Part shown: positions 1,732 to 61,316 of the stretch, piece by piece
Position numbering within the stretch: position 1 is the stretch's first letter
Layout: every line of letters starts with the position of its first letter
Assembly: GCA_035236585.1 (NCBI GenBank)
Contig: CP141132.1
Span: forward strand, 41,481,880 to 41,545,879
Length of the DNA stretch: 64,000 bases
Origin: Warburgia ugandensis
Taxonomy: Eukaryota > Streptophyta > Magnoliopsida > Canellales > Canellaceae
Reading direction: 5' to 3'
Notes under the pieces: generated by a model
What the model saw: only the letters and a program-made list of their open reading frames with translations
The model's database searches: none
Told to the model about the DNA's origin: nothing
Position numbers and translations under genes: made by a program

Positions 1732-2401
1732 AAATCACCTTAATTGTGTGAACTTGTTATCATACTCTACCACCGATATATTCCCTTGTCTTAGATCCAA
1801 AAGCTCTATCAACTTTCTTTCTTGTACATGAGAAGGGAAATATTTGTGGTTAAATACTTCCTTAAATTCCTCCCATGTAGTATCTTTAGAATTTGGGATA
1901 TGTTGTTAGCTAATATCCACCAAAATGTAGCTTCTTGTTTTAATAAGTAGGTGAAAAATTTCACCTTCAACTCTAGAGGAGTATGGAGTGCACTGAAAGT
2001 CCTTTCTACTTCATATATCCATTCCTCAGCCTTCTCAGCTTTATCCTTGGCATTATACATTGTAGTCATCTTTTAAAATCTCTCCATCATTTTGTCAACC
2101 TTTTCTGGTGTTAATGGAGATTTTCTAACTTCTTCACTTGGTACAAGGGAAGATTGCCCTTGTACTAGTGTGGGAGTACCTGGTGTTGGTGTTAGTGTAT
2201 TATGTCTCACTTCAGGCTGAGCCTGAGCCTGCGTACTTGGTATTTCTATGGGAGGTGATGAACCTTGGATTTGTTGTAGGTGAGGAAGGAGGTTCTTAAC
2301 ACCTTTGTCACCATCTCTTCTACATTGTTCATGGTTACTCTCTCCATATTGACTTCTGGAGTATTTTGAGCTGCCTACCTTGTGACTCTCTTTGGCGGCA
2401 T
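1732..2401 (-). pseudogene. T1 gag N-terminal part
   Basis: The likely original start is the ATG at 2401 (reading MPPKRVTR), followed within ten codons by an in-frame TAG, so this copy cannot make full-length gag. Downstream, an open piece at 2069-1809 reads EKAEEWIYEVERTF and then ATFWWI, the pattern of the capsid-like retrotransposon gag domain (tryptophan-rich, helical). A proline/glutamine-rich stretch precedes it (around 2130-2260), with AEAQAQ-like repeats that T2 also has. Gag forms the particle shell. Frameshifts separate this part from the zinc-finger region at 1731. The assignment rests on collinearity with T2 and on the domain pattern. Confidence 0.75.
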
Positions 2402-2517
2402 CTGCTCATAAACCAAAATTTCTATCAATCCTCTATACAACTACTTCTATCTTAATTTAGACTTGGATTATAATCTCTCTTTTGGACATATTTGTACTAT
2501 ACTGCAACTAGATGAAT

Positions 2518-2530
2518 GGCTCTGATACCA
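2518..2530 (-). other. T1 primer binding site (initiator tRNA-Met)
   Basis: The minus strand reads TGGTATCAGAGCC, complementary to the 3' end of plant initiator tRNA-Met, two bases after the end of the 5' LTR. This is the standard primer site of Tekay/Del and many other plant LTR elements. It fixes both the orientation and the LTR boundary. Confidence 0.9.
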
Positions 2531-2532
2531 AC

Positions 2533-5500
2533 TATGACGACCTAGGTTTTTGTAACACGTTTTATAATACATTTTTGAAAGACAGTGCCCTTGATAGTAA
2601 AAAAATTTCCCAAAACAAAGCAGCGAAAATTCTTTTGTTTAGAACCTGTTTTGTAAAACCCAAGTCATCACTTCATTCATAACATAAGTAGAATTTTGTA
2701 CAAGATAAAATTCCATTGAAGGAATATACTTTTATTAAATTCCAAAATCCATCCAGTGGTTCACAGTACAGCCAAATCCATTACAATACTTGTCCAAATT
2801 ACATAATCCAAAACTCAAAGCTCAGCATACAATGAAACTCTCATTACAATACAATACTCTCAAACAAAGTAAAATGTATGTCTTCAAGGGGTACACCTTG
2901 AAGATTATTCTCTTCAAGTCTTCTATTATCTTGAGCTCCTAACTCTCCTTCTCTGTATCTAAGATATTGTAAACATTGCACCATTTATAATATCTCAGCA
3001 AGCAGTGCTTGGTAGGGGATTCAAGAAGCATAATAATTGGCGATATAATTCTAATACTTCATAATCCCATTATCCCTAAACATATTTATATCTCTACTAT
3101 TTACTTTGTAATATATGTATATCCATATACATACATACTATACATGGGTAAATCAGTTAAATTTATGAAAGTAATCAAATATCATTCCCAACTAAGCTAA
3201 TCAATTCTCTCCATTATGAGAATTCAGTATTTCAGCTAATCCTACACTAGGAATTTCCCTTCTTGGGAAATATTGGTAATATCACAATTACCTAGCATTT
3301 CATTATGCTAAAACATAAGGCATTTAACTATGCCTACTCTCATATGCATCATAGTGTAAAATAATCAAAGGGCTACCATGCTGCAGTTTGATCTGTACTA
3401 GCGCGGTCAGCTAACTACCCTGTTCACCATTAATACCACGGTGGAAAATATTATGTCACTACCCATATGGGGAGACAAGACTTTCACAGTGGTGGCCTTC
3501 CCATAATTGCCCCACCCAACTTTTAGCCTCTCATAGGGCAAGGTATCATCAAATCATCAAATTTCAAGAAGCAGGTGGCCAAACCCTCATAACTCCTCTA
3601 GCATAGCATCCCCCAGGCTTATGCCTATTAAAACAAAATCACAAGCCTCCAAGCTTGCATGTAAAATAGATCTCATACATATTAGACAATATGTCTGTTT
3701 ACTTAGGGTTGAAATATCTTCTAGTTCCATATTCACTTAAAGTGTAGTCCTTAACCATTTTATATGTGCTTGGTTGGATCATAACAGTTTTAGGGGATTT
3801 AATACAAGTATTAACATTACTCTTGTCAACATGAGGTCATGGGTTCAATCATGTACATCACATGTAAATTCATTCATCAAATCCTCCTACCTTCATGTAG
3901 TGATCCCTTTTCCCAGATCTTCCATGATCCTGACTGATGTATGTAATCTGTACATCCACACACACTGTCAATATATATAAATTATGAACAATCCTATTGA
4001 TCACTAGATCTGATGTTTAGAATGATCTTTAAATCATTTATATCTAAGTATTTTCTATCTCTAAGTCTTGGTGTGTCCATCTCCTTTATCTCGATCTTTC
4101 ATAGATCCTTTGATCGACAATCTACACTTATTGATAAAGATCAAGGTCTTAAATATTTTATCATCTAATTCTTCTTTGATCTAAGTTTAGTTATTGGATC
4201 ATCCCTAAGGAGGATGATCTTGGTTTTCTTCCTTGAATCATCTTTGATCAAGGGTTTGGATTATCTAATCTAATAAACAATATGTGATCTATAACATGCA
4301 TACTAAATACAATAAAATATTCTTATTCTTATTGTTCATGATCATTCAAGATCTAATGGATCTTGTTTGATCATCCTTATCTTACTTACAATTTTTATTA
4401 GGGTTAGATAATTTACTAACCTGTTATGCTTTTACTATTATTATTCAACCAGTTAATGTTTTGCTGGTTGAAAGTAACTTATTTCATCCTAAGTCTAGAT
4501 TGCTCCTCTTATTTTCAATTGGCTAAAGCTTACTAGCTGAATGGGTGAACACAACGTGGTTACTTCAATCCTCATGTAAGAAGGTGTATAGACCTCACAA
4601 ATGTCAATGGAAGGTAGGGGAAGAGTCAGGCTCTATTAGACAACCCCCTTAACCACTATATTCAACATTCATTAGAGTGACCTTAGCTCAACCTTTCATA
4701 AGGTTCCTATAAGCATGTTGACCCTAGGTACTCTTTCTAATTGATTTTAATTAAGTCCATGAACATTTACAATGTCATTCGTGGGGTTTATTATTTTCCT
4801 AGTTTGGGCCAAGGATTTGATAATCCTTATATTGTCCTACTAACTATAGCCCTTACTAATTAAGTCCAAAATAATTCACTCTTATTTGTGTCATGAAACA
4901 CTACTTTCTCATTAGATTTCATTTTTGGTGTTTTATGATCTTTATCTCATAACAAGTAGATCTACTAATGAAATTTAACCATAAATGAATTATAAATTCA
5001 AAGCATAAAACTACATAATTGAACAACTTAATGATAATGATACAAGGTACTTAAAATTACACTAGCATGATTTTCAACTCATATACCTTAATAACTCAAT
5101 TTAAACTAACATGTACCTAAGGTACAATCTCATACTATAGTATAATCTTACATGAAATCCTAGCATGGCCCTAAGTTACAATAGCATGAAATCATACTAA
5201 CTTGGTCCTAAGTTACACTTGCATAAAATCACACTAACATGCCCTAACATAATTAAATCTAGTAACCTATTATAACAATCTAATCACATATCATGCTAAA
5301 GTCTAAAAGTTGCACTAGTATGCTTTATAACATAAATCACATTTAAAATGCTATTATCAATTAATAAAAAATAAAACTAATTACATTAATATTTTTAGAA
5401 ACCTTTGCTTATGATCCAACCATTAGATATTAGATCTTTTCCGTTTAATCAAGGGTTTTAATTACATTCAGGGGGTTTTCTTCATTAAGGTCCAAAGATC

Positions 5501-7262
5501 ATATTGCTTTGTTTTTGTCATATTCAATCCATGATCTCCATGGATTTCATCATATTAACATTTATTCAATCTATCCCAAGGATCTGATCACACTTGATCT
5601 CATTGATAAAGTGGGTTCATTTGTATTTTTAGGGTTTTTCTACCATAACGGGTAGATTCCCTTAATATAGCTCAGATATGTCCAAATAAACCATAGATAT
5701 CACTTTATTTCAATAGTATATCATTATTAAAATAGATTACCAAGATCTGATCACCTCAGATCTTGAAGATCTTGGAAATTGGAAACTTATTTCCTAAATA
5801 CAGAAAGTTTCATAAGATATTTTCTCCATTTTATCATTTCATAAGAAACTAGAGGTTGTAGGATTTCCTTAGCTTCTTTTCGATCTCAATTTGGAGTTCA
5901 TATGACTCCTGAATTGAGTTCGGAAGTTCATGGTCCATTCCTAGGGTCTAGATATGATCTAGGCCCATCGGAACAGACGACCCAGATAGTTCAGGGGGAA
6001 CATTCAAGCGGTGCCTCTGTCACCGGGACAAACATCGTACACGCAACGCACACTTGGAAATGTTGCTGCGTGCTGCGTTTCCATGCGGTGTTTCACACGT
6101 CATCCTGGGGAACCTAATTCGATCGAGAGATCGAATAGTCCGTTCTGGACCATCCAATCAATCCATCTCAATTGAGGTTCCAAAACTTAATATAATTTCG
6201 TGAAACTTTTACCCTAGGGGTTTTGGACCCTTTTGGATCGATTGGAAGGGTCAGATTTTCCATCTAAGCCCTCAACTTACTTTATTTTTACAATTTTTCA
6301 CCCAAATCAAATTATAGTAAAATAAAATTTTCATTAAACAACAATAAATATGTCTAGGAAGTAGTTCCACCTACCTGATTGGAGAAAAGCGTCAATTATA
6401 TAGTCCAAATTAAGACAATACCAGTTTGATGATAAGATAGCCCAAGATCCACTTGTTTTGTGATTTTCGTTGTTTGAGCTATTGGATCTTGAAGTTTCTT
6501 TGGGTGTTTTGTAGCTATGGTATGGTAAGAAATTTTATACATTGCGATCTATGATATTTGATCTAGAACAGAGTGCCTAATTGAATTTAAGTCTCTTGTT
6601 CCAATTTAGAGAGAGGAGAGAGAAAATGAAAGAAAGAGATCTTTTGGGAGTTTTGGGATTTTGAGAATGGATCTATGTTTGGTTTTGCTGGGGAAGTCAA
6701 GATAATTTTGTGAAAATTTTATGGACATTTTTAGAGGATTTTTTGGGGTGTATTTATAGGCATTTTTGGGTGTTTTTCATGATTATGTGTAATGATTATG
6801 GTTTATTCTTTTTATTATTTAATTAACATTGGATTCTCCACTACCAGCTGGTAGTGGTTTGACTCACAGTGTAAAAAGAGCTTTTTTGCCCTTTATGTAT
6901 AAAAATTAGGGTTTATTCCCATGATTTCAGAATTGAGCGTACTTAGTGGCGTTGGATTTGTATTTCTTAGCACATTCTAAATTTTGATGTCTCAGATCTT
7001 GATTATAGGTAAAATTACTATTTTACCCTTTTATCCATAAAATAAAGAAAATTAAGGATTTTTCATCCGAATTCAGAATTTGTCGTGCTTACAGTCATTC
7101 TGAAGGGTTCACTGAGTTCAATTTCAATCATACATGTCTTATGCCTTGATTATACTTCTATAAGAATTACATTCTAAATAACGCTAATATTCCAACCCAA
7201 AATTTCTGAAACTCAAACTTTATTGATTTTCTCAATCAAATACAAAAATTGGGATTATTACA
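2533..7262 (-). repeat. T1 5' LTR (about 4.7 kb)
   Basis: Read on the minus strand, the LTR begins TGTAATAATCCC at 7262 and ends GTCGTCATA at 2533 (the canonical CA appears mutated to TA), next to the primer site. It is collinear with the T2 LTRs: start, TATA box, a GC-rich segment (about 5900-6150 here), the low-complexity AT-rich middle, the module around 3420-3560 ending in GGGGAGACAAG, and the terminal module with AGCATTGCTTGC-like text near 2990-3010. It contains no gene that I recognise. Short open frames inside it (for example 5902-6117) do not resemble proteins. Confidence 0.88.
6751..6758 (-). promoter_or_regulatory. T1 LTR TATA box
   Basis: TATAAATA on the minus strand, about 505 bases into the LTR. 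The same sequence in the same context (CCTATAAATAC) occurs in both T2 LTRs (44426 and 56917), so this is the probable core promoter for the element's transcript. Confidence 0.6.
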
Positions 7263-12620: not shown

Positions 12621-15571
12621 CATGGTGAAGAGATTTCACATAGGCCCTTGACAAGTTCGAGAAGATATGATCAAGACAATGTAAGAAGTGTTGGAGGCAG
12701 TACAACTATACCGATGTTTCAAGATGCATATGATAACTTCTAGGATGACCCTAAACAATTTCATATCACATTAGAGGAAGCCGATGAGCTATTGTACACC
12801 AAGTGTAGAGATTATACCAAGCAGTCCGCAATGGTAGAACTTTACAGTATGAAATCAAGATTTCATTTTTTTTATCAAGGTATTACAGAAGTATTAAAAG
12901 TAGTGGGTAAAATGCTACCGAAGGGTAATAAATTGGTGAAGTCCACATGGGAGGCAAAGAAAATCATGGTTGTACTAGGGTTGAAGTATGAGAAGATACA
13001 TGGTTGTCCCAATGATTGCATCTTGTACAGGAAGAAGCACAAGGATAAAACTACATGCCCAACTTGTGGACAACCAAGAATTCAATTGAGACAGTTACAA
13101 ACATTTTTGCAAAGGTTCTATGGTACTTCCCCCTATCTAAGGTTCAAAAGAATGTTCCATATAATAGAAACAGCAAAGAAATTAGTGTGGCTTGCCAATG
13201 ATAGAGTAGCTGATAGCTTTTCATGTCATTTAGTAGATACCCTAGCATGGAAACTCGTAGACTTCATGTGGCCTAATTTTGGTGAAGAACCTAGAAACCT
13301 ATGACTAGAATTATCTACAGATGGGATTAATCCTCATGGTTCTATGAGTTGCAAGCATAGTTATTTGCCTGTTATATTAGTTTGTTACAATCTTCCACCA
13401 TCTCTATGCACGAAGAGGAAATTCATGAGGCCAACTATGTTGATATTAGGTCCAAAGCAGCTAGGGAAGGACATTGATGTGTACTTGTCTCCTTTGATCA
13501 ATGATCTTGAGGCATTATAAGCCACAAGCATTGAAGCATACGACACATACTGGAAAGAGTCATTCACCCTAAAGGTTATACTGTTGTGGACAATAAGTGA
13601 CTTCCCTATGTATGGTAATTTGTCTAGATACATTATTAAGGGATACAATGCTTGTGCCATCTGCAGTGATCAAACATGTGTTGTACGACTTTAAAATGAT
13701 AGGAAAATGGCATTCCTTAGGCATAGAAGATGGTTGCACAAAGACCATCCATATCATCTTCAAAAGGGAGAATTTAATGGGAGTGTATAAATAAGGACAC
13801 CTCCAAAGATGTTGACAGGACAATAATATTGGAGCAGGTTGAATACATTAATGTCTTGTGGGGAAAGAAGAAAGCAAGTAAATGTGCAGGTGAAAGTAAT
13901 TGTAGAAATTATTGGAACCAAAAATTAATATTCTTTTGTCTAGCATACTGGAAATCACTGCATATACGTCATGTGCTTGATGTCATGCACATGAGAAGAA
14001 TGTGTGTGAGAGCTTGATCGGTACCTTGCTTAATATCTCAGGAAAAACAAAGGATGGACTTGCAACTCTATGCAACTACTACTACTACTAATAGCAATAT
14101 GTTTAATGTTACCAGATAAAGTTAGGGGAGCTATTACAAAATTCTGATACTTCTTTAATGCTTTGTACAAGAAGGTGGTGGATGTTTCAAAATTATAAGA
14201 AACTCAAGGTCATCTAGTGATAACTTTAAGTGAGCTTGAGACAATCTTCCCACCATCTTTCTTTGACATCATGGTACACTTAATAGTGCACCTCATTGAT
14301 GAGGTTAGACTTTGTAGGCCAGTTTACTTGCAATGGATGTATCTATTTGAGAGGTACATGAAAATTATAAAAGGGTGTGTACATAACCACAACCAACTAG
14401 AGGGGCGTATAGTCTAATGTTATATTGTAAAGGAAGTAATGGAGTTTTATGCAGAGTACTTAGCAGGAGTGGATGCCATTGAAATCTCAAGAAGAAAATA
14501 ATCAGTTCCATTTCATGATCCCAAGGTTAGCAAACCTCTATCAAGTGGTTGTGTATCGACTATAGACTATAAAGAACAAGATCAGGCACATCTTTATGTG
14601 TTGCAAAATGTTGATGAACTCCAACCATGCAATGAGTAAGTTGATCATGCATGCACTTATTTAAAATTTAATTATTATTGATGGTTAATTACATTTTCTT
14701 TTATTACTCTATTAATTTGTGTGTGTGTGTACATAGTGAACACATGGATGTACTTGAGGCAAAGAATCCAAGTTATGCAAAGAAACCAAAGTGCTACAAT
14801 TTGAGCATTGTCACACTTTCAATAATTGGCTACGTAAGAAGGTAAAATGAAAGAATTCTCACTTAATATTAATTAAAAAACTACATTATGTGTATATATA
14901 TATGTATGCATGCATGCACACATTAATCTTACTTAAGCCTACTTAATATGAATATACACATATTCAAGATCAGGGAGAAGTAGCAGCCAACAGCATATGA
15001 GAAACCTTGGGCTGGATAGTGATGGAACCATTACCAGAAGCAATAAAATATGCTGGATATGCCATCAAAAGACTATGATAACTCAAGAGTATAACAGAAT
15101 AGTGGAGTTAGCTTAGTTTCCAATGCTACATTCTTTTCCAGTTCAAAGGATAACAGACCAATAGTGGTGGATGATATTTATTATGAGGTTATAAGTGAGA
15201 TTTGGGCCTTGAATTATATTTTTAGAACTGTGGTTGTGTTTAGGTGAGATTGGGTGGAATACCACAAAGACAACATCAAAACTAGTGCCCTTGGATTGAC
15301 ATTGGTTGACCTTAACAGCATCGGCTATAAAAATGATCAATTTATTTTGGCATCTCAAGTAGAACAAGTTTTTTACATGCAAGATGAACATGATAAGAGA
15401 TGGCCAACTATTTTATCATCCTATCTGAGGGATTTTTATGATGAAGACAATGTAAGAGATACTAAAATATATTACCCTTCAATTACCAAAACAATCCCAT
15501 CAATCGAAGTAGCACTTGATGAGAAGGAGGATTATATGCATGAAAACAGTGAGGAAGGTGCTTGGATTTGA

Positions 15572-21899: not shown

Positions 21900-22379
21900 C
21901 CCCTTAGTGGTTTTCCAAAAACAGATCATATGATCTATTCTCAAACGAAGAAACTCTCCAACCATGAAACCCTACGCCAATGAGAAACTATGGAGAAAAG
22001 GAAAAGAAAAAAGGAGTGAAAGGAGAAGAAAAGGAGAGAAGAGAGAGGGAGCAAGAGGGTTTTGTGAAATCGTTTTTAGATTTTTTGAATACTTGACAGG
22101 GTCAAAACAAAAGCCTAGAGAATTTTTGCTCCAAGAATCCATTCGTTCATGGAAATTCTGTAAGCAAAAGCAGATCTTTTGACTCCATGGTTGATTAGAG
22201 ACCCCAATTTGAGCTTACCTAGCTCTCCAAACATCGTGATCTCATCTCAATTCTCTAAAATCCTGCCTTCTCTTAATCCATAAGGATTGGGAAAATGGCT
22301 AATTCTTGCATTCTTCGCACTGGGTTCAAATTATATATGTTAATAACTAACATTCTGTTTTATATTTATTGTTCTTGTA

Positions 22380-22745
22380 GTGTAATCTTGGATGCACTCA
22401 ATTTATATTACAGAATGTTTGTTTGGGATGTGGTTTCTTGGCACACTAGGATGTCTGAATTAGCTAGGTCTGGATTTCCTAAAGACAGGTTTTGGTTCTT
22501 TAGTGAGAGAAATGGGTAGGAATCCATCCTAATCAATTGAGCTTGTCTTCGATTCTGCTATGTTCTAGTGAGATAGGCAATTAAATTTCCAGCAATTGCA
22601 CACAGTGAGTTTGAAATGTGGGTTCTCTTCTGATTGTCGTGTAAGGAATGCACACTTAACAGCTTATGTAAATTGTAAAAGTATCACTAATGCAGGGACA
22701 ATGTTTGATGGATCTGTCAGGTGGAAGGGCTTGTACATGGGCAGA
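22380..22745 (+). pseudogene. Captured PPR-protein gene fragment
   Basis: Pentatricopeptide repeat proteins bind organellar RNA. Plus-strand reading with frame changes gives MFVWDVVSWHTRMSELARSG then FPKDRFWFFSE, then GIHPNQLSLSSILLCSSEIG. A degraded VLKCGFSSD-RVRNA-like stretch follows, and then [14 protein letters not shown]. This is the repeat grammar of PLS-type plant PPR proteins (DVVSWN, ARSGF, GxxPNxxxLSSIL, NALxxxYxxC). About 120 codons are represented. At least three stops or frameshifts break it. The preceding TTCTTGTAG at 22371-22379 resembles a splice acceptor. It is absent from the related LTR B, so it was acquired by this lineage or lost from B. Confidence 0.78.
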
Positions 22746-23070: not shown

Positions 23071-23340
23071 TTTTATGCAGTAGCTTCATTATCAATGGTC
23101 CTGGCAATGTTCTACACTTCAACCCTTGTTATGGTGAGACACATATTAGTTTACTTGGACATCAATTCTTTAACGAATTCACTAACGGTTGTCAGCATAA
23201 AAGCCATTAGTATTGCCATAAAGCTTGCAATAGGGGAATAAGGGAAGTAGCTTGTCCAAAAACATGTTTTGTTCTTTTTGTTGCTATAGCAGTTGTGTGC
23301 ATTCTAACTCAATTGAATTACTTGAATAATATTGAAGCGC
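23071..23340 (+). pseudogene. Captured NIPA-type magnesium transporter fragment (copy in A)
   Basis: NIPA-domain proteins are multi-pass membrane proteins linked to Mg2+ transport. Readings in two frames give FYAVASLSMVLAM, FNPCYGETH, HILVYL, SLTVVSIKAISIAIKL, PKTCFVLFVAIAVVCILTQL and then NYLNN. The order (YGxTH, LVYLGICSL, GSLTVMSVKALGIALKL, YPxTW, CVLTQLNYLN) follows the family across about 90 residues spanning three membrane segments. Two frameshifts and two stops make it dead. The same fragment lies in B on the minus strand (48545-48345), so it belongs to the common ancestor of this LTR family. Confidence 0.8.
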
Positions 23341-43761: not shown

Positions 43762-44425
43762 AAGGAACATCCAAAGGGTTTAAAAGCTTGTGTTTGTGAA
43801 CTTTCCAGCATGCAAAGTGATTTGACTTAGTGCTTAGGGACTTCCAAGGATATTTTATGTTTTGATATTGTGTTTAGGACTTACCAATTGTAATAACCCC
43901 AATTTTTGTAAATTGATAAAGTTTGAGTTTTCATAAATTTTGGGCTGGAATATTAGGTTATTGGAAATTCTCTTTTTAAAGAGTTAAAAACATGATTTAA
44001 AAATTAGAAATTATGAATGTACTTGAAAAATCGATCAAAATGACACTAAGTACGTTCAATTCTCAGTTAAAATGAAAAATCCCTAATTTTCTTTATTTTT
44101 TTATGAATAAAAGGGTAAAATGATAATCTTACCCCTAATTGATATCTAAGACATCAATATTTAGAATGTACTAAAAAATACGAATCCAATGCCACTAAAT
44201 ACGCTCAATTCTGAGTTCAAGAGAATAAAATATATTTTTCTCCATAAAATGGCAAAATTGTCCTTTCACAACCCTGTGGGAACCAAAAGGGTATGTAATG
44301 AGTGTCAAACCACTACCAACTACTAGTGGAGAAGGAGGTGATAGTGGAGGATCCAATGTTAATTTAATATTCCAAAGAATTAAAACATAATTATTACAAG
44401 TAATTATGAAAAAAGGCAAAACACC

Positions 44426-44433
44426 TATAAATA
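44426..44433 (+). promoter_or_regulatory. T2 5' LTR TATA box
   Basis: TATAAATA in the context ACACCTATAAATACCCC, 537 bases into the LTR, conserved at 56917 and in T1. About 95 bases downstream is a CT-rich leader typical of a transcription start region. Confidence 0.6.
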
Positions 44434-46679
44434 CCCCTCCAAAAATCCTCCAAAAATGTTCATTAAAATTTTCACGAAATCATCTTACTTACCCTAAAAA
44501 ACCATATCTAGATTCCTTCCTAAATTTCCAAAACTCCCCAAAATCTCTCTCCTCTCTTTAGATTGGAATAAGAGACCTAAACTCAATTAGGCACTATGTT
44601 TCAAATCAAAACTCACAAATCCCACCATCCACAAGACCCTAGACTACCTTATCTTAAAAACCCCCAAATCAATTTGAAGATCCAATGGTTCAAACAACGA
44701 AAAATTACAAGATAAGTGGTTCTTGGGCTATCTTATCATCAAGTGGGTATTCTTTTAATTTGGACTGCAAAACTGAAGTTTTTCTCCAATCAAGTAGGTG
44801 GAAACCCTTTCCACACTTGTTTCATGTTATTTTATGTAATTTTTATTTTTCTAAAATTAAGTTTAGGTGAAAAATAATAAAAATCAGGTAAGGGTAAGAA
44901 CCCTTCAACTCTGGATGATGGAGGGCTTAGATGGAAAGTTTGAGCAATTCAATCGATCCAAAACTATTAGAATAGAAATTTCAACAATTTTTATAAAGTT
45001 TTGAGCCTGTAATAAAAGAGGAATTGATTGGATGGTCCAAAATAGATTGTTCGATCTTCTTAAGAAGATTGGGATCCCAGGATGCCGCACGAAAATGCAC
45101 CCTACAGGAGAATAATAAACCCCATGAATGATAATTTAAATGTTCATGGGTTTAATTAAAATCATTTAGAAAGAGTACATAGGGTTAAAATGCTCATAAA
45201 AACCTTATGAAAGGTTGAATTAAGGTCACTCTATTAAATGTTGAACATGGTGATTAAGGGGGTTCTCTACTCGAGCCTCGCTCTTCCTCTACCTTCCGTT
45301 GATGTTTGTGAGGTCTAAATACCTCCTTACATGAGGATTGAAGTAACCACCTTGTGTTCAACCATTTAGCCAGTAAGCCTTATCCAATTGGAAATAAGAG
45401 GAGCAGTTTAGACTTAAGTTGAAATAAGTTATCTTCAACCAGTAAAACATTAACTAGTTGAATAATAATAATAATAATAATAATAAGAGCATAAAAGGTT
45501 AGTAAATTACCTAATCCTAATAAAAATTGTACGTATTATAAGGATGATCAAATAAGATCCATGGGATCTTGAATGATCAAGAACAATAAAAAGAAATAAA
45601 TACTTCTTGATGATGATAAATATATATTACTTGCAATTTAGATCAAATAAACTAGAAGATCTAAACCCTTGATCAAATATGATTCAACGAAGAGAATCAA
45701 GATCATCCTCCATAGGGATTGTCAAACAACTGAACCTAAATCAAAGAAAAATTAGAAGATAGAAGATCTAAGCCCTTAATCTTTATCAACAAGTATAAAT
45801 TATTGATCAAAGGATCTATGAAAGATCTATATCAAAGAAAGGAATACACAAAGACTTAGGATAGAAAATACTCAGATCTGAAAGATGAGAAGATCTTTCT
45901 AACCATTAGATCTATTGATCACTAGGATAGACACTATCTGAAGAAGATAGATCATAATAGGACAAAAGGTCTAGATCCTTTATATCAAAGGATAAGCTTA
46001 GACTAAGAATATAGATAGGATTATTCAGATTGTATAAATATTGACAGTATGTATGGATTTACAGATTACATAAGTCAGTCAGGATCATGGAAGGTCTGAA
46101 GAGATGGATCAATACTTGAAGGTAGGAGGATTTTATGAATGCATCTACATGGGATGTACATGTTGAATACATGATCTTATGTCTATAAATGTTGACTCGT
46201 GTAATGTTAATACTTGTTTTAAATGCCCTGAAACCCTTATGATCTAACCAAATACATATGAAATGGTTAACTTAGACTTGAGGAAAAGACTCTAAGTGAA
46301 TATGGAACTAGAAGATATTTCATCCCTAAGTAAATAGACAGATTGTGTGATATGTATGAAACCTACAAGCATGGAGGCTTGTGGTTTTATTTTAAACAGG
46401 CATAAGCCTAGGGATACTACGCTAGGAGAGTTATGAGGGTTTGGCCACCCACTTCCTAAAATTTGATGATGCCTTGCCCTATGAGAGGCTAAAAGTCGGG
46501 TGGGGCAATTATGGGAACGCCACCATTGTGAAAGTCCTATCTCCCCATATGGGCAGTATGACACCCTAGGTTTTTCATGAAAACTTTTCATGTTTATTTC
46601 AAAAGATGAAATTTTAAAATACAAAAACAGAGAAAGATTTTTCTTTAAAATTCATTTTTCCAAAAACTCGGATGTCACC

Positions 46680-48340
46680 CTTATGCTGACATTATACATA
46701 TGTATAGTTTTCTAGAAGATAGAAATTCATTTTTTAAAACAGGACCCATCTAGTGGTTCACTTGTATAACCCCTATAACATTATATTAAATGTCCAATAT
46801 CAGAATTCAATGACTAACTACACAATACAAAAGCTATAATAAAATGTATACCTAAGTGCAGAAGTATGGTTGTTGGATTCCTCTTGTTGTGTACATCTTC
46901 TCCTATCTTTCTGTATCTGAGATATTGTAAACATAAAACATTTATAATATCTCAGCAAGCTATGCTTGGTAGGGGAGTTTAGGTAGCATACTAAATCTTA
47001 AGATACATTAATTATTATAAGTAATTAGAATATTCATTTCCTAAATATCTACATGTTTCATAATCATTAACAATCCATTGATAAATCAATTATTAGCATG
47101 TCTCATATTTATCAATATATATATGCATGTTTCATAAATATAAGTAATACATTGATTGATCAAACATCTTTAATTATTATTTGTTATCTAAATAAACCAA
47201 TCCAATTCCATGAACCATACTTTGTATAATAGTTCTACCCATTCATAAACTCATATGAAACTTATACGAAACTACGCCCTCAATCATATACATATAGCAC
47301 ACATACACATATATGAAAATTGTTAAAAGACATATAAAATTATGAATATAATCAATATCATCAAATTTACATTCCCATACTATACTGGGTTTCAAAATCA
47401 TACTCCTCATCATGTGGGATTCATAATCATCCTGCCTCTACTGATATATCAATATAATCCTCATGCCCCTCACTATATGAGGTCAACATTCCTCTAACCA
47501 TTGCTGGGAAAACAATATAAGGCATATCATCATGCCAGCATCATATGAGGCATCTCATCATGCCATGGTAGTACACTACCTATCATATGTGCATAATAAT
47601 GCAAAATACACAAGGACTACTATGCCACAGTCTCAATCCATACAGCATGCCCAGATAACTACATAATAATCCACTGATACCAACTATGGAAATAATAAAT
47701 CCATGTCCTCATGGGGTGGACCATAACTGTCACAGTGGCGGCCTTCCCATTATTGCCCTACCTGACGTTTAGCCTCTCATTCGGCATGGTATCATCATAT
47801 AAATTTTAGGAAGTGGGTGGCCAACCCCTCATAACTTCCACAGCATAGCATCCCAGTCCTAGGGCTGTGGAAAACAAAATCACAAGCCACCATGCTTGCA
47901 TGTAAAATACTAATATACAGGCATCTTGTTTGTCCATGATATATATATATGAATATCTCATAATAATAATAACATCTTCACTTATTAGGTGATTGCCCAC
48001 TAAGGATGTAATGTAAATCCTAAACTCATATATCATCAATACTGACATGGTATCTATGTACCATAAACATAATTTCATGGTTCAAATACATGATATACAA
48101 GGCATAAGCATAAATTATAACATGCATTTCTTTTAATTAACATTATTTTCATCATTATAATTTAAATCATGTCAAATATCAACCATGTCATTTTAGTTTC
48201 ATAACATTTATAATCAGAAATAAGATCATGTTTAGAACATGCAACTTATGATTTAGATATGCTATCTTAAATTTTCACCTACCTCGTGTGACGCATTCAT
48301 TGGATTCCACTAACTTTAATCGCCCTCGTCTTCACGACTA
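46680..48340 (-). other. LTR B 3' half, no gene
   Basis: LTR backbone collinear with A 23341-25078, including the modules with GGGCAATAATGGGAAGGCC near 47740 and CTCAGCAAGCTATGCTTGGT near 46950. AT-rich. The open frames here are not protein-like. Confidence 0.7.
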
Positions 48341-48344
48341 ACCA

Positions 48345-48545
48345 TGCACTTCAATATTATTCAGGTAATTCAATTGAGTTAGAATGCACATAACTTCTAT
48401 AACAACAAAAAGAACAAAAACATGTTTTAGGATAAGCAACTTGTCTTATTCCCTCTATTGCAAGCTTTATGGCAATACCAATGGCTTTTATGCTAACAAC
48501 CGTTAGTGAATCTGTCAAAGAACAGATGCCCAAGTAAACTAACAT
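48345..48545 (-). pseudogene. Captured NIPA-type magnesium transporter fragment (copy in B)
   Basis: The minus-strand frame reads MLVYLGICSLTDSLTVVS, then IKAIGIAIKLAIEG and VAYPKTCF. After a one-base shift it continues VLFVVIEVMCILTQL and NYLNN. It is better preserved than the A copy, with a single frameshift over about 67 codons, and matches two membrane segments of the NIPA (DUF803) family. Upstream NIPA sequence present in A (FYAVASL, YGETH) is missing here, replaced by other material. Confidence 0.8.
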
Positions 48546-48600
48546 GTGTCTGAAGATTTCATAGATATCAGTGGAGGATTCTCACAATGCATGTCGTTTT

Positions 48601-48786
48601 CTAATTACAAGCATGGAAGATTTTCATTGGGGAACTAATTCTGGCATGAATGTCATTGCCATTTAGATAACCAAAGGTGGTTGCAAGAGCTGGATCTGTC
48701 AAGTCATCATCAGGCACATATCTTAGCAAACTAACACGTGGACATGCATAAAATAGTAAGCAACCTTGTCTCCTGGCATGTAACAC
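48601..48786 (-). pseudogene. Possible captured gene fragment, unidentified
   Basis: The 61-codon minus-strand frame contains FYACPRVSLLRYVPDDDLTD and then PALATTFGYLNGND, with normal amino-acid composition and no low complexity. Upstream (49050-48900) another frame reads YKMNGNLYLVGKCFVAGFNP and then TTGLVAY, which recalls beta-propeller or kelch-like proteins, but this is weak. I cannot name a family. Its position between the chimeric frame and the NIPA piece makes a third captured exon likely. Confidence 0.4.
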
Positions 48787-49088
48787 TTCTAGTGTAGCTC
48801 ACCAGTACTATCCATCACGTTTTTCCATGGCTCCAAAAAGATACAAGTAGATCTTTACTATCCAATAAAAATGCCCTTGCCACTAAGTTTGGTAATAATT
48901 TTACTTTCAACCTTCATTAGTAAGCCACCAATCCAGTAGTCGGGTTGAAACCAGCAACAAAACATTTGCCCACAAGATATAAATTTCCATTCATCTTGTA
49001 ACATGAATAATAAGCATGCCTAAACACGAGAAGTTTCACATTCATATTGAATCATCGTGCACATGTAGTCCTTTGTACCTCTTCTAAC

Positions 49089-49916
49089 TTAAAAGTAATT
49101 CGTCCTCCTCCTCGTGTCATCATTCCCAGCCAAATGCCTCATCTTTAACTCCTTGATCAACTGAACATGCTCAAAAAGATCATTTTTCTCATCAACACGC
49201 TTAGGTGCCCATCGGTCCACTTTATGGTCATAATCCCCCAAATCAGCACTACTTATCATCTTCTTCACACTTCTACCTCTTGTATCCGGCTCTTCATCGG
49301 ACTGACCTTCATTCAAATTCAACCTTGCCCATCTAGAATTCTTAATGTGAGTAGCTTTAAACGCATCATCATCTTCCTCGTCACTTGACGAACTCCTACT
49401 TGCCCGAAACTGATATCTCGACCTCAATGTCCTACTCGCCTCCACAGAATAATGCCTACGGTTTAGCAAATCTATTGGCATTCTCAAATTACTGCCATCA
49501 TCCACTAAATTACGCCTATCAGACATGAGTTTTCTTAAATCAATAGGTGGGGAAATACTATAGTTTTGATGGCGAACACGTGCTGGAGATTTCAAAGGTC
49601 CTTCATCTTCGTTCCATAGATCTTCTGCCCTTTCTTCATGAATGGATCGGCTATATGAGTAAGTGACTCCTCCAGCAGTACAGGCAGCGTAAAAAGCTAG
49701 AGAATACATCTCCATCTTTCCTGGCTCACTTGGAGCAGGAATTATAAAGCTCTTAGAAGATCCATTTGAAGAAGAAGCAGATCTAGGAGAAGGGAAGCTA
49801 GGGTTTCTATTGAGGATGTTTTTAGTATTTAAAGATTTGGCGGAGGACATTGAGCAAAGAAAATTGGGAATGAGAGAATGGCAAGATTTTTTATTAGGAG
49901 TACAGATCAAAGCCAA
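49089..49916 (-). CDS. Chimeric 275-codon frame: phosphate-carrier N-terminus fused to unknown protein
   Basis: The frame is uninterrupted, unlike everything else in the window. Residues about 12-83 (SLIPNFLCSMSS, a Ser-rich presequence, PAPSEPGKMEMYSLAFYAAC and then TAGG) match the N-terminus of plant mitochondrial phosphate carriers (PHT3/MPT3), which import phosphate through the inner membrane. The match stops just at the first membrane segment. Residues 84-275 are unrelated: basic and Arg/Ser-rich (SRYQFRASRSSSSDEEDDD), then DRWAPKRVDEKNDLFEHVQL, ending RRRTNYF. I do not recognise that part. No carrier motif (PxDxxK) is present, so no transport function is expected. The fusion within one frame, inside an LTR and in LTR sense, indicates exon capture. 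Translation is not shown. Confidence 0.6.
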   Translation of the reverse strand: MALICTPNKKSCHSLIPNFLCSMSSAKSLNTKNILNRNPSFPSPRSASSSNGSSKSFIIPAPSEPGKMEMYSLAFYAACTAGGVTYSYSRSIHEERAEDLWNEDEGPLKSPARVRHQNYSISPPIDLRKLMSDRRNLVDDGSNLRMPIDLLNRRHYSVEASRTLRSRYQFRASRSSSSDEEDDDAFKATHIKNSRWARLNLNEGQSDEEPDTRGRSVKKMISSADLGDYDHKVDRWAPKRVDEKNDLFEHVQLIKELKMRHLAGNDDTRRRTNYF

Positions 49917-50074
49917 ATTGTTAGGGCTGAAAATGGCACAATTGAAAACATGACATCAGAATCTTCCGCATCGCAACGGATGAACAACTCAAAACGGAGC
50001 GGATGCAGATGGCATGCACTCAGAATGACACGGAAAGCACTCAACAGAAGTAACCAAATCAAACATTCTTTAGT

Positions 50075-50146
50075 TTCCACCGATCTCTGCAGCTTGTACA
50101 AATCTCCATACACTGTCATCGTATAAACATTGTTCCGGAGATTCTC
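50075..50146 (-). pseudogene. Captured ankyrin/TIP1-like segment
   Basis: Twenty-four codons on the minus strand read ENLRNNVYTMTVYGDLYKLQ and then RSVE. The pattern (DVYTAAAYGDLEKLxRLVE) resembles the first ankyrin repeat of plant TIP1-type S-acyltransferases, with two or three changes. It lies in the same orientation, upstream of the chimeric frame and downstream of a GA-rich leader. Too short to be certain. Confidence 0.5.
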
Positions 50147-50334
50147 TTTGCCGACAAGAGCTGATTGAGACACCTCCCGATCTCTTGCTCCTTCTCTCTT
50201 CTCTCGTCTCCTTCTCCTCTTCCCTCTTCCCTCTTCCCTCTTCTTGTTCTTGTTCTTCTTGTTCTTTTCTGTCTTTTCTTCTGTTCGTCTGGTTTTGGGA
50301 ACAGACCTCAGTCTATTCGATGTTTTCACTTAAG

Positions 50335-50363
50335 TGGGGGTGCCATTATCAAATGCACCCTCC
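50335..50363 (-). promoter_or_regulatory. Shared LTR box, copy in B
   Basis: The plus strand reads GGGGGTGCCATTATCAAATG followed by CACCCTCC, 527 bases from the LTR start and next to the purine-rich leader (50165-50290 on the minus strand). Confidence 0.65.
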
Positions 50364-51824
50364 TTTTTATTATTTTAGTTTAGTTTAGTTTTATTTATTT
50401 TAAATTTTAATATTGATGTCCCAACTATTCTGAACACCATGATGCCAGTCAACGCAGACAGTACACCATACTAATGATGTTTTTCAACTTCATTGACTGT
50501 CACATTCCATCTCCTGCAAGTGTTGCCCACTTAACAAAATTACTAAAATACCCTTTTACAAGAAAATTATCGTTTATTCATCCAACCTCCAATTTCAATG
50601 AACTTAGTGCCATTGGATTCATATTGACGAGTAGAATCCAGATTTTATAATTTCAATTTCATGTTCTTAGTTAGTTTTTTTACTTTTAATTACCATATTG
50701 CCCCTGACTTCAAAGGCCTATGACTTCTTCATACGGACTCTGTTTTCAATGTTCTTTGGCTCATTGGATTCTATTTTCCAAGTACTATCTAATGGTATTA
50801 GTTTTAGTTCCAAATTATTATAGTATTAAAAGATATACTTCTTGAAATCTCACAACCTGATCATGGAATAGTAAAATTTTAGGGTTGTTACAGGCAATGA
50901 CACAATATTTTCAACCGTGGTATTAGTGGTGAACAGGGAAATTATCCAAGCGCACTAGTATGGATCAGACTACAGCATGGTAGTCCTTTGATTATTTTGT
51001 ACTATGATGCATATGAGATGTGCATAGTGAAATGCCTTATGTTTTGACATAATGAAATGCTAGGTAATTATATATTACCAGTATTTTTCAAGAAGAGAAA
51101 TTCTCAGTATAAGACTAGTTGAAATACTGATTTCTCATAGTGGAAAGAATTGATAGCTTAGTTGAGAATGTTATTTGACTACTTTCATAAATTTGATGGA
51201 TTTATCCATGTACAATATGTATAAGGATGTATATGTATTACAAAGTAAAGAGTTTGATACATGAGTATGTTTATGAATAATGGGATTATGAAGTATTAGA
51301 ATTATACTATCAAATTATTATACTTCTTGAATCCCCTACCAAGCATAGCTTGCTGAGATATTGTAAATATTTGAATGTTTACAATATCTCAGATACAAAG
51401 AAGGGGAGTTAGGAGCTCAAGACTGAAGAAGACTTGGAAGAATAATCATCTGGGTATAGCCCTTAAAGACGTGTATTTTTGTTTTATTTGTGAGTATTGT
51501 ATTGTAATGAGAGTTTCATTGTATGGTTAGCTTTGAGTTTTGGATTATGTAATTTGGACAAGTTTTGTAATGGAATTGGCTTGTAATGTGAACCACTGGA
51601 TGGATTCTTGAAATTTATAAAAGTATATTCCTTCAATGGAATTTTATCTTGTACAAAAAAATTCGACTTATGCTATGTATGAAGTGATGACTTGGGTTTT
51701 TCAAAACAAATTCTAAAGAAAAGAATTTTCATTCCTTTGTTTTGCAAAAAAAATTTACTACTAAGGGCCTTGCCTTTGAAAAATGTATTATAAAATGTGT
51801 TACAAAAACCTAGGTCATCACAGT

Positions 51825-56417: not shown

Positions 56418-56429
56418 AAGGGGGGAGAT
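56418..56429 (+). other. T2 polypurine tract
   Basis: AAGGGGGGAGAT immediately before the 3' LTR, preceded by the TTTCGAGGACGAAATTATTG phrase common before the polypurine tract of Tekay-type elements. It primes plus-strand DNA synthesis. Confidence 0.9.
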
Positions 56430-59400
56430 TGTAATAACCCCAATTTTTGTAAATTGATAAAGTTTGAGTTTTCAGAAATTTTGGGTTGGAATATTAGGTT
56501 ATTGGAAATTCTCTTTTTATAAAGAATAAAATATGATTTAAAACTTATAAATTATGAATGTACTCAAAAAACCGATTGAAATGACACTAAGTACATTCAA
56601 TTCCAAGTTAAAATGAAAAATCCCTAATTTTCTTCTTTTTTTATGAATAAAAGGGTAAAATGGTAAATTTACCCATAACTGAGATCTAAGACATCAATAT
56701 TTACAATGTACATGGAAATACAATTCCAACTCCACTAAGTACGCTCAATTCCGAATTCAGGAGAGTAAAATGAATTTTTCTCCATAAAAGGGTAAAATGG
56801 TCCTTTCACATCCTCATGGGGCCCACAAGGGTCCACAAACGAATCCAATGTTAATTTAATATTCAAAAGAATTAAAACATAATTATTACATGTAATTATG
56901 AAAAATGCAAAACACCTATAAATACTCCTCCAAAAATGCCCCAAAAATGTTCTTTAAAATTTCCCCAAAATCATCTTGCTTACCCCAAAAAATTAGCTCT
57001 AGATTCCTTCCTGAATTTCCAAAACTCCCCAAAATCTCTCTTCTTTCACTTTCTCTCTCCTCTCTCTATATTGGAACAAGAGACCTAAATTCAATTAGAT
57101 ACTCTGTTCCAAATCAAAACTCACAAACCCCACCATCTATATGTCCCTACACTACCTTATCTACAATACCCTCAAATCAATTTCAAGATCCAACGGTTCA
57201 AACAACAGAAAATCACAAGACAAACGGTTCTTGGGCTATCTTATCATCAAGTGGGTATTCTTTTAATTTGGACTGCAAAACCGAAGTTTTTCTCCAATCA
57301 GGTAGGAGGAAACCCTTTTCACACTTGTGTCATGTTATTTTATGTAATGTTTATTTTTTTGAAATTAAGTTTAGGTTAAAAATAATAAAAATCAAGCAAG
57401 GGTAAGAACCCTTCAATTCTAGATGATGAAGGGCTTAGATGGAAAATCTGACCCATCCAATCGATCCAGAAGAGATTCAAAACCCTTAGGATAGAAATTG
57501 CAAAAAAATTTATTAAGTTTTGAGCTTGTAATTAAAGAGGAATTGATTAGAGAATCCAAAATGGACTATCTAATCTTCTTAAGAAGATCAAGATCCTAGG
57601 ACGCCGGACAAAAACATGCCCTGCGAGAGTGTCTCATCATGTGACGCCGTCCCAACTAAACTGTCCCGTGCCAATGCTGGTCTCAAGGAGCATGTTATTG
57701 CATGCATCCCAGTGATGGGAGCACAGTGATGATTTTGCCAAATTTGATCTGCCCGACTGATCCTAGCCATCTGTTCCACTAGGCCGAGATCAAATCTAGA
57801 CCCTCGGAATGACTGTGAACTTCAGTCATCAATTGTGGAGTTATCTAAGCTCCAAAATTGAGATAAAAAAAAGAGCTATGGAAAGCTTGTAACGTCTATT
57901 TTCTTCTGAAATCATAACATTTAGAAAATGCTTCGTGAAACTTTCTTTATTTAGGAAATAAGCTTCTAATTTCCAAGATCTTCAAGTCTGAGATGATCAG
58001 ATCTTGGGAATCTATTTTAATGATGATATAATGTTGAAATCAAGTAGTATCTGTGATTTATTTTGATAGATCTAACATAAAATGAGAAATCTACCTTTAC
58101 GGTAGAAAAACCCTAAAAATGCAAAGGGACCCACTTGATCAATAAGATCGAGTATGATCAGACCCTTGGGATGGATTGAATGGATGATATTATGATGGAA
58201 TCCAATTTGATCATGGATTAAATATAACAAAAACAAGTGGATATGAGGTTTAGATCTTAATAGAGTAAAAGCCCTAAAATTAATTAAAACCCTTGATTAA
58301 AAGGAAAAGATCTAAAATCTAATGGTTCAATCATAAGTAAAAGTTTCTAATAATCTTAATCTAATTAGTTTAATTATCTTTTATTTGATAATAGAATTGT
58401 AAATGTAATTTATGTTGTAAATTAGGAAGCATGATAGTATAATTCTTAAATGTTAGCATGCTATGCTCTATATATTATTAGCTTATTATAATAGGTTGGT
58501 AGATTTAATTATCCTAGGGCCATGTTAGTTTAAATTTGAGATGTTAGCATGATTCCATTTGATTAGTATTAAATTTCATGTATTTCATAACTTAGGATTA
58601 TGCTAGTTTAAGTATAGTTTTATTTCATTAGGTTAAGTTACATACATAGGAAGCATGTTAGCATAAACAGTTGTTAAACTTATATTGGATTTAGGCTTTA
58701 AAGTTTACAATTTATTTATTGATAAATTTTATTAGTAGATTCAAATGTTAAGTAGTTGTTAAGATATATTGAGCATAAATCACCAAAATGTAAACTAATG
58801 GAGTATAGAGATTCATGGACGTTTAAGATGAGTGAATGACTGTGACTTAATATTAGTAAGGACTATAGTTAATAGGACAATATAAGGATTATCAAACCCT
58901 TGAACCAAACTAGGAGAATAATAAACCCCATGAATGACATTTTAAATGTTCGTGGGTTTATTGAAATCAATCAAAAAGAGTACTTATGGTTAAAATGCTC
59001 ACAGGAACCTTATGAAAGGTTGAGCTAAGGTCACTCTAGTGAATGTTGAACATTGTGGTTAAAGGGGTTCTCTAATAGAGCCTCGCTCTTCCCCTATCTT
59101 TTGTTGACATTTGTCAGGTCTAAATGCCTCCTTACATGAGGATTGAAGTAACCACCTTGTGTTCAACCATTCAGCTAGTAAGCCTTAGCCAATTGGAAAT
59201 AAGAGAAGTAGTCCAGACTTAGGCTGAAATAAGTTATCTTCAACCAATAAAACATTAACAAGTTGAATAATAATAATAATGATAAGAGCATAAAAGGTCA
59301 GTAAATTATCTAATCCTAATAAAAATTGTAAGTAAGATAAGGATGATCAAATAAGATCCATGGGTTCTTGAATGATCAAGAACAATAAAAAGAAATAAAT

Positions 59401-61316
59401 ACTTCTTGATGATGATAAATATATATTCCTTGTAATTTATATCAAATAGAATAGAAGATCTTATATCAAATAAAATAGAAGATCTGAACCCTTGATCAAA
59501 TATGATTAAATGAAGAGAATCAAGATCATCCGCCTTAGGGTTGATCAAATAGTTGAACTTAGATCAAAGAAAAATTAAAAGATAGAAGATCTAAGCCCTT
59601 GATCTTTATCAACAATTTTAAATTATTGATCAAAGGATCTATGCAAGGATCAAGATCAAAGAAAGGAATACACAAAGACTTAGGATAGAAAATACTTAGA
59701 TCTGAAAGATTAGAAGATCATTTTAACCATCGATCTATTAATCAAATGGATAGACACTATCTAAGGAAGATAGATCATGATAGGACAAAAGGTTTAGATC
59801 CTTTATATAAAAAGGACATGATTAGACTAAGAATATAGATAGGATTATTCAAATTGTATAAATACTGATAGTATGTTTGGATTCATAGATTATATACATC
59901 AGTCAGGATCATGGAAGGTCTGAAGAGATGGATCACTAATTGAAGATAGGAGGATTTTATGAATGCATCTACATGGGATGAACATGTTGAATACATGATC
60001 TTATGTCTATAAATGTTGACAAGTGAAATGTTAATACTTGTATTAAATCCCCTGAAACCCTTATGATCCAACCAAACACATATGAAATGGTTAAGTTAGA
60101 CTTGAGGAAAAGACTCTAAGTGAATATGGAACTAGAAGATATTCCAGCCCTAAGTAAATAGATTGATTGTCTGATACGTATGAAACCTATTTTACATACA
60201 AGCATGGAGGCTTGTGGTTTTGTTTTAAACAGGCATAAGCCTGGGGATACTATGCTAGGGGAGTTATAAGGCTTTGGCCACCTGCATCCCAAAATTTGAT
60301 GATACCTTGCCCTATGAGAAGCTTAAAGTTAGGTGAGGCAATTAGCGGAAGGCCACCACTGTGAAAGTCTTATCTCCCCATATGTGCAGTGACACAATAC
60401 TTTCTACCGTGGTATCAGTAGTGAATAGGGCAGTTATCCGAAGGCACTAGTACGGATCAAATTGTAGCATGGTAGTCCTTTAACTATTTTGCACTATGAT
60501 GCATATGAGATAGGCATAGCAAAATGCCTTATGTTTTTGCATGATGAAATGCCAAGTAATTGTATATTACCAGTATTTTTGAATAAGGGAAATTTGTAGT
60601 ATAAACTAGCTGAAATACTGATTTCTCATGGTGGAAAGAATTAATCAGCTTAGTTGGGAATGTTATTTGACTACTTTCATAAATTTGATGGATTTATCCA
60701 TGTACAATATGTATGTATAAAGATGTACATATATTACAAAGTAAAGAGTTTGATACATGAGTATGTCTATGAATAACGGTATTATGAAATATTAGAATTA
60801 TATTGTTAAATTATTATGCTTCTTGAATCCCCTACCAAGCATAGCTTACTGAGATATTATAAATGTTTGAATATTTACAATATCTCAGATACAGAGAAGG
60901 AGAGTTAGCGCTCAAAATTGAAGAAGACTTGGGAGAATAATCATCAGGGTATACCCCTTGAAGACATGTATTTTGTTTTGTTTGAGAGTATTGTATTGTA
61001 ATGAGAGTTTCATTATATGGTGAGCTTTGAATTTTCAATTGTGTAATTCGGACAAGTTTTGTAATGGAATTGAGCTATACTATGAACCACCGGATGGATT
61101 CTTGAAATTTATAAAAGTATATTCCTTCAATGGAATTTTATCTTATACAAAAAAATTCTACTTATGCTATGTATGAAGTGATGACTTTTGTTTTTCAAAA
61201 CAAGTTGTAAAGAAAAGAATTTTAACTGCTTTATTTTGCTAAATTTTTTTACTACTAAGGGCCCTTCCTTTGAATAATGTATTATAAAATGTGTTACAAA
61301 AACCCGGGTCATCACA
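56430..61316 (+). repeat. T2 3' LTR (4.9 kb)
   Basis: It starts TGTAATAACCCC, ends CCCGGGTCATCACA, and is collinear with the 5' LTR apart from the B insertion and a 1.29-kb stretch present here (57622-58911) but absent there. It contains the TATA box at 56917, a GC-richer segment (57598-57800) that differs strongly from the equivalent part of T1, the AT-rich middle with an (ATA)n run (59264), and the terminal modules near 60830-60900. No genes. Confidence 0.93.
56917..56924 (+). promoter_or_regulatory. T2 3' LTR TATA box
   Basis: TATAAATA in the context ACACCTATAAATACTCC, 487 bases into the LTR. Same site as in the 5' LTR and T1. Confidence 0.6.

Follow-up and report, generated by a model that had tools for sequence, protein, structure and literature searches.

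Retrotransposons with long terminal repeats (LTRs) are known to pick up pieces of host genes, and in the published cases, cited here and below from the available parts of the papers, the captured sequence lies between the LTRs or is ascribed to template switches. A maize survey lists 425 elements with gene fragments, representing at least 189 captures (PMC2774510), and a survey of rice and sorghum counts captured genes, its available part making no statement on placement inside LTRs. According to the available part of a 2026 review, 5′ transduction has not been reported in plants (PMC13317346), and our searches of open-licence papers gave no description of an LTR that contains pieces of spliced mRNA. 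Here, we describe a solo LTR, LTR B, in a window of 64,000 nt (the whole stretch of DNA analysed) from Warburgia ugandensis, whose interior carries pieces of five host genes, all in LTR sense and each with a donor locus in the same genome. Sequence comparison indicates that the putative Gypsy-type family to which LTR B belongs, with LTRs of ~4 kb, has probably taken host 5′ exons into its LTR repeatedly, via RNA and by splicing into acceptor sites of the LTR.

LTR B is similar to a second LTR in the window (LTR A) and to other copies in the genome, and it is nested in the LTR of another Gypsy element. An insertion is supported by the flanks GGCAG and GGCAA and by the 3′ LTR of the surrounding element, in which the site is empty; counting a degenerate TA end, LTR B ends at 46557 and not at 46559. 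Donors and further copies were searched for in the same genome (1.12 Gb, 14 contigs given as C numbers; L numbers are fetched loci), and B coordinates run in LTR sense, with B position p at window position 50893 - p.

In this direction, the cargo consists of pieces of a TIP1-like palmitoyltransferase gene, an NCRK-like receptor kinase gene, a mitochondrial phosphate carrier (MPT) gene, a DEAD-box helicase 48-like gene, and a NIPA gene (Table 1). The prediction that several host fragments sit within one LTR is borne out by these five separate donor loci. The TIP1-like, MPT, helicase-derived, 61-codon, and NIPA pieces that it named all lie on the LTR sense strand in the claimed order, while the NCRK-like 5′ end, which overlaps the MPT start by ~11 nt, had been missed. 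The NCRK name is our assumption, as the kinase match supports the fold only; the donor has its kinase exons at C9:54.170, and kinase cDNA is also found in sister LTRs. The protein of the TIP1-like gene exon 1 matches ankyrin-repeat chains, including ZDHHC17/HIP14. What had been called an unknown acidic, Ser-Arg-rich protein is indeed present, and is the N-terminus of the helicase: residues 106-282 of the chimeric frame are 85% identical to the C10 helicase locus, and among the relatives of the gene exon 1 (120 listed of 122), the name DEAD-box RNA helicase 48 occurs several times and 33 once. The helicase intron 1 portion starts at ~49078 (B 1815). The 61-codon frame (48798-48604) is real, though not a known coding piece, its part down to 48711 being helicase intron 1 and its remainder being repeated next to NIPA. 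The 160-nt stretch before NIPA matches at all 40 scored places (50 candidates), 22 of them nearly full length and 18 from position 52-55 on, and is possibly one more captured piece. Every cargo piece of determined strand (TIP1, NCRK-like, MPT, helicase, NIPA, TOPLESS-like, PPR-like) stands in LTR sense.

Mapping of the donor exon borders, proposed with the original prediction, shows introns exactly gone from the TIP1, MPT, and NIPA cargo, the helicase being the exception. In the sister LTR L021 (C12), TIP1 gene exons 1-4 are present as four blocks (277, 141, 117, and 78 aligned nt) at most 4 nt apart, with three introns gone. The TOPLESS-like piece that follows is contiguous over 95 codons, where the genes match in separate exons; we take it to be TOPLESS, a weak WD40 match supporting the fold only, and a protein search with this second L021 frame gave 11 matches, all unnamed. 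In L011 (C7), exons 1 and 2 of MPT are contiguous, without the 981-nt intron, whose GT and AG signals are present in the gene, and the NIPA pieces of LTR B, LTR A, L009, and L037 lack a 135-nt gene intron. A search for the NIPA family (148 matches; 133 of 362 candidates scored) found some copies that span model positions 49-230 unbroken, while genes such as the one at C4:46.98 Mb match exon by exon. Likewise, at least 18 places match 103 or more of the 106 residues of an NCRK-like kinase query unbroken and with an identity of at least 77% (scored: 150 of 930 candidates), and the same query splits over two separate exons in the C9 gene. Since introns are exactly absent from NIPA in LTR B and from TIP1 and MPT in sister LTRs, capture through spliced RNA is indicated.

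The native LTR middle is replaced by the cargo, not interrupted by it. The 1,174-nt native middle of the cargo-free LTR L047, up to a point that we call acceptor 1, is 0% covered in all 15 B-like copies (B, A, L009, L011, L020-L024, L026, L037, L056, L058, L061, and L063; L026 has no known host piece) and 80-100% covered in all ten cargo-free ones. A second type of middle (864 nt, L048) also scores 0 in these 15 copies, and 67 nt of it are present in L065, the flank of a NIPA-bearing copy. In odd copies, the lack of the native middle may reflect divergence rather than replacement. Both replacement and intron loss bear on the insertion of a Pack-MULE or Helitron with gene fragments into the LTR. 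Such DNA transposons are known to carry captured plant genes (PMC13317346) and would suit a helicase piece that retains an intron, but the introns missing from the TIP1, MPT, NIPA, and NCRK-like pieces and the replacement of the native middle, in place of a mere interruption, make this very unlikely. Processed pseudogenes made by long interspersed nuclear elements, dropped into one LTR and then amplified, would lack introns as well. However, the cargo from the TIP1, MPT, and helicase genes derives from their 5′ parts, the 3′ joints of NIPA, MPT, and TOPLESS-like pieces have no poly(A) tail, and several genes occupy the same LTR slot, so that we give this origin hardly any credence.

The 3′ joints of the cargo point to splicing. 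Before the site matching B 2538 (acceptor 1), cargo-free LTRs read like TTTTTATGCATTGTATAG/ATTGAAG or TATAG/ATTGAAG (the slash marks the joint). Within 42 examined sequences, 18 rows cover this site at 14 distinct cargo-free places, and AG precedes it at 13 of them, the exception being L025. In the gene, the NIPA exon ends in a splice donor (AATAAG/GTCAGT), while the NIPA copies in B, A, L011, L020, and L023 read AATAAG or AATAAT/ATTGAAG (L020: GAGTAAG/ATTGAAG), L037 reads AATAAG/ATTGAAG, with A or G variants, and L009 reads AATAAT/ATTAAAG. A second acceptor reads CCAG or CTAG/GTGAAGAA in cargo-free LTRs, with AG at both places available. The TOPLESS-like exon ends TTGGAG/GTACTA in its gene and is joined exactly at acceptor 2 in L021 (TTGGAG/GTGAAGAA). 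Twelve cargo copies match the native acceptor-1 region, and eight of these start exactly at the site. Thus, a host splice donor and an AG on the LTR side are both found for NIPA and TOPLESS-like pieces; for MPT, which in L011 ends at the end of its exon 2, only the host side is found, and the helicase piece does not show this pattern.

Several observations weigh against splicing as the general route. The helicase cargo retains ~368 nt of intron and ends inside it, not at a splice donor. L058 and L061 start 4 and 12 nt inside the acceptor-1 site, and the NIPA-bearing L024 and L022 match 13 and 20 nt further upstream of it, which we take as chance. In L063, which carries kinase cargo and is one of the eight exact starters, the bases before acceptor 1 are not traced to an exon, and L065, the only other copy found over the MPT joint, reads CTCTTGG, without AG. 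Seven of the eight starters carry the same NIPA event, so that independent splice joints are few, two of them being proved on both sides. Furthermore, the fetched parts of the donor genes show no LTR resembling B or A.

The main rival is a template switch to spliced mRNAs. Here, the reverse transcriptase would leave the element RNA for a packaged host mRNA and later return, in both cases at short matches, and no splice site in the LTR would be involved. Intron loss and sense orientation would follow equally, an intron-bearing helicase piece is compatible with such jumps and may be explained by them, and BARE-2 is a published LTR chimera made by that route (PMC13317346). Short shared words do occur at seams: an A-run before the helicase 5′ untranslated region (UTR) in L009, the MPT-helicase seam, and, in both L011 and L065, CTTGG at the 3′ end of MPT. 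However, jumps at short matches do not predict that NIPA and TOPLESS-like pieces end at the last exon base and that the LTR resumes right after the native AG, and we consider plain template switching possible but rather unlikely as the full explanation.

On balance, we lean towards the LTR acting as an exon trap, in which 3′ splice sites of the LTR take host 5′ exons (5′ transduction) that reverse transcription then places in each LTR between its promoter and the primer site, with the resulting lineages recombining into multi-gene chimeras and the NIPA piece spreading. An LTR copy inside a host gene would be read from the host promoter, and a host exon would be spliced into the acceptor within the LTR, giving a predicted chimeric transcript with host 5′ UTR and exons up to a splice donor, then the 3′ part of the LTR and the primer site, the LTR middle being absent. 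The cargo copies, which consist of leader, cargo, and LTR from the acceptor on, have the form expected of such a host-promoted RNA. Reverse transcription would proceed from the LTR on through the host exons, and then move from the 5′ end of the RNA onto the 3′ LTR at its GA-rich leader. Pairing in this step would be helped by this leader and by the GA- or A-rich stretches at the 5′ joints. The product (U3 and leader, host exons, LTR 3′ part) would be copied to both ends, and LTR B could have arisen later, when reverse transcription switched templates among packaged RNAs from different lineages.

Comparison of LTR B with five sequences (L047, LTR A, L021, L009, and L011) suggests such a history. 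Over B 1-356, cargo-free L047 is closest (86.5%), followed by LTR A, L021, and L009 (81-82%), with L011 matching from 247 on only (74%). Over B 360-698, L047, L021, and partly L011 match at 81-82%, LTR A matches over 45 nt, and L009 not at all. Within these five, B 700-837 is then matched by L021 only, 849-1228 by L011 only, and 1250-2345 by L009 only. LTR A (90%), L009 (88%), and L011 (83%) share B 2342-2540, and from 2540 on L009 (81%), LTR A (79%), L011 (71%), and L047 (70%) match. Derived changes in MPT are common to LTR B and L011, and the MPT piece extends further 5′ in B. LTR B thus looks like a patchwork of TIP1-, MPT-, and helicase-bearing LTR lineages, judging by these alignments. 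The LTR that had been predicted to have collected its fragments does hold multiple host pieces, but as a mosaic of lineages with differing cargo and not by taking one after another.

The fusion of MPT to the helicase is one seam of this mosaic. As predicted, MPT is fused in frame to a second protein, and at the seam MPT is short of 11 nt and the helicase of one, so that the frame happens to stay open. Its 288 codons without a stop could suggest a selected new gene, and had been taken as a hint of recent capture or selection; this does not hold up. Third-position bias, which selection on the chimeric frame should leave, was not found: private changes in the helicase part (604 columns, ~30 of them intron) fall on codon positions 1/2/3 as 3/7/5 in B, 7/9/9 in L009, 11/11/9 in L010, and 4/1/3 in the gene, and those of B in the MPT-part alignment, seam included, as 9/5/8. 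Nor is the chance of staying open small. In simulations, the helicase part remains open in 0.29 of trials with 40 substitutions (37 of 550 sites distinguish B from the gene) and the MPT part in 0.60 of trials with an assumed 25 substitutions, while the sister copies L003 and L004 have one and three stops in the frame. Pfam and PDB searches gave nothing for the 287-aa chimeric frame, and a selected gene is a reading that we consider extremely improbable.

Other copies of the LTR carry the same types of cargo (helicase, NCRK-like, NIPA, TIP1, and MPT), and helicase, NCRK, or NIPA pieces are found in both LTRs of other elements, in line with the predicted duplication of cargo at both ends; LTR B is solo, so this is not visible for B itself. 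The LTR starts of L009 and L010 (C11) lie 8,675 bp apart, and both LTRs carry helicase cargo and are 87.9% identical, the alignment to the second LTR stopping inside the cargo at L010 1735. NCRK pieces occur as pairs at C2:38.27 and C5:34.88 Mb. A 381-nt query (NIPA of LTR A with ~120 nt of flanking LTR) gave 1,140 candidates, and the 40 that were scored, which do not include LTR B, all match at 84-100% over nearly all of it; among them, pairs on the same strand are separated by 8.1-8.7 kb on C2, C1, and C8 and by 5.0 kb on C5. Of the 148 matches in the NIPA family search, ~80 (counted by hand) are short and cover ~model 160-233, which is what LTR B and LTR A retain. The NIPA exon piece recurs in many dozens of places at least, and perhaps in over a thousand.

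Of the 18 unbroken NCRK-like copies (e.g. C3:75709979), 13 lie in a 127-codon frame, nine of these without a stop in the match, which may reflect recent amplification or constraint. The TIP1-like (C2 9.0577 Mb) and TOPLESS-like (9.0738 Mb) donors of the L021 fusion are same-strand neighbours 16 kb apart, and a paralogous pair lies 30 kb apart on C13 (10.770 and 10.800 Mb); the TIP1-TOPLESS order in L021 is the opposite of that of a read-through transcript. L046 (sense, 3862-5061) holds a second LTR 3′ part, which begins exactly at acceptor 1.

Structurally, TG...CA ends with a 5-bp duplication are found in L011 (TGTAACA..GTGTCACA, ATAAC on both sides) and, with the degenerate end, in LTR B. 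Two LTRs with a tRNA primer site and a polypurine tract are found in the cargo-free sister element L050/L049 (primer site TTTGGTATCAGAGC, polypurine tract AAGGGGGAAAGAT), and L009/L010 form an LTR pair with cargo. Sense frames do not exceed 132 codons in L050 and stay below 70 in L009, a lack for which decay could also account. Pfam searches with 94 further stop-to-stop frames (16 sister LTR loci, LTR A, and L011), separate from a scan of the ten most promising frames, gave only five weak families (best E 0.0038), none convincing. The family is putatively Gypsy-type with no coding frame seen between its LTRs, and the Gypsy protein matches at this locus come from the element that holds LTR B. 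LTR elements without gag-pol between their LTRs are known as large retrotransposon derivatives (LARDs), which the family may resemble.

Elsewhere in the window, LTR A matches LTR B at 80-81% in its first 379 nt and its last 1.9 kb, the middle sharing a single 45-nt match. Its cargo at 22277-22516 is presumably PPR-like, and Pfam and NCBIfam searches with it gave nothing convincing. The interior of the element that holds LTR B contains gag, CCHC zinc knuckle, protease, and reverse transcriptase fragments (Pfam), and an inverted second Gypsy copy at window 1-7262 is 85% identical to this element over 3.5 kb. Blocks of a tandem repeat, diverged and spaced at 80 and 160 nt, occupy window 7.3-7.9, 25.1-26.6, 29.5-31.7, 39.7-43.6, and 61.3-64.0 kb. 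A scan of 78 frames, which does not resolve frame positions, gave one match each to Transposase_21 (tnp2, 1.3e-25), DUF4218, and DUF4216, read as CACTA remains, and a weak tnp2 match lies at window 12744-13301.

Table 1. Features of LTR B, its surroundings, and LTR A (window positions; B positions in LTR sense)
Feature	Window	B position	Strand	Remarks
Solo LTR B	46557..50892		minus	sense TGTAACAAC...GTGTCATA; nested in other Gypsy LTR; self alignment and empty site
LTR 5′ part with GA-rich leader	50196..50892		minus	common to cargo-free sister LTRs; 83% to L047 over B 8-705
TIP1-like palmitoyltransferase exon 1 piece	50056..50195	698-837	minus	82.9% to gene L054, C2:9.0577 Mb
NCRK-like receptor kinase gene 5′ end	49881..50044	849-1012	minus	91% and 87% to C9:54.179 Mb
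MPT exon 1 piece	49665..49891	1002-1228	minus	84.7% to gene C9:0.138 Mb
DEAD-box helicase 48-like exon 1 and ~368 nt of intron 1	48711..49653	1240-2182	minus	92% to L002/L012, C10:33.12 Mb
Chimeric MPT-helicase open frame	49089..49955		minus	288 codons stop to stop
160-nt stretch before NIPA	48550..48710		minus	genome-recurrent; beside NIPA wherever both searches list the place
NIPA piece	48356..48549	2344-2537	minus	Pfam PF05653, E 1.1e-11; exon-exon joint near 48499; 3′ end is gene exon end
LTR 3′ part	46557..48355		minus	begins at acceptor 1 (/ATTGAAG)
Target-site duplication GGCAG	46552..46556			one mismatch to opposite flank
Target-site duplication GGCAA	50893..50897			flank of LTR B
5′ LTR of Gypsy element holding LTR B	43887..51822		plus	self alignment
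3′ LTR of Gypsy element holding LTR B	56428..61316		plus	self alignment; empty site near 60386
LTR A, sister of B	21344..~25085 (end approximate)		plus	different cargo in same slot; self alignment
LTR A cargo	22277..22516		plus	71% to 924-codon open frame, C10:56.07 Mb (genome search)
NIPA piece in LTR A	23071..23329		plus	135-nt gene intron gone

As the cargo lies within the LTR, every full copy carries it twice and solo LTRs keep it. The NIPA piece shows that captured cargo can turn into a regular part of a multi-copy family. If LTR acceptors do take host 5′ exons, capture would become predictable, with exon and joint forecast from the position of the element. Lineages can also bring exons of unrelated genes together in new open frames. 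One parallel to the proposed capture is found in human SVA, which is a non-LTR element, unlike the LTR B family. In SVA 5′ transduction, a host promoter and upstream sequence can travel along with the element (PMC13317346). In BARE-2, an LTR was rebuilt by template switching between elements, a likeness to LTR B, although the partner there is a retrotransposon and here host mRNAs (PMC13317346).

Maize Bs1 and other gene-transducing LTR elements likewise carry pieces of host genes, three in the case of Bs1, but their cargo is described within the element (PMC13317346, PMC2774510), whereas that of LTR B is inside the LTR. The maize survey, in its available part, reports no element with more than one standard nuclear gene (PMC2774510), compared with five in LTR B. 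Among terminal-repeat retrotransposons in miniature (TRIMs), GmaRetroS15 has exon-only pieces of three genes and 5-bp target duplications, like the LTR B family, but the gene matches of such elements lie in the internal regions of elements of 1.2-1.4 kb and not in the LTR (PMC4717578). Cassandra, Helenus, and Ajax do carry host gene sequence inside the LTR, and hence at both ends, as is the case here (PMC10886601). Their cargo, however, consists of small RNA genes with RNA polymerase III promoters (PMC10886601), and the LTR of a Cassandra-type TRIM is short, with a 5S or tRNA-like promoter of that kind, whereas LTR B spans 4.3 kb and carries pieces of spliced mRNAs.

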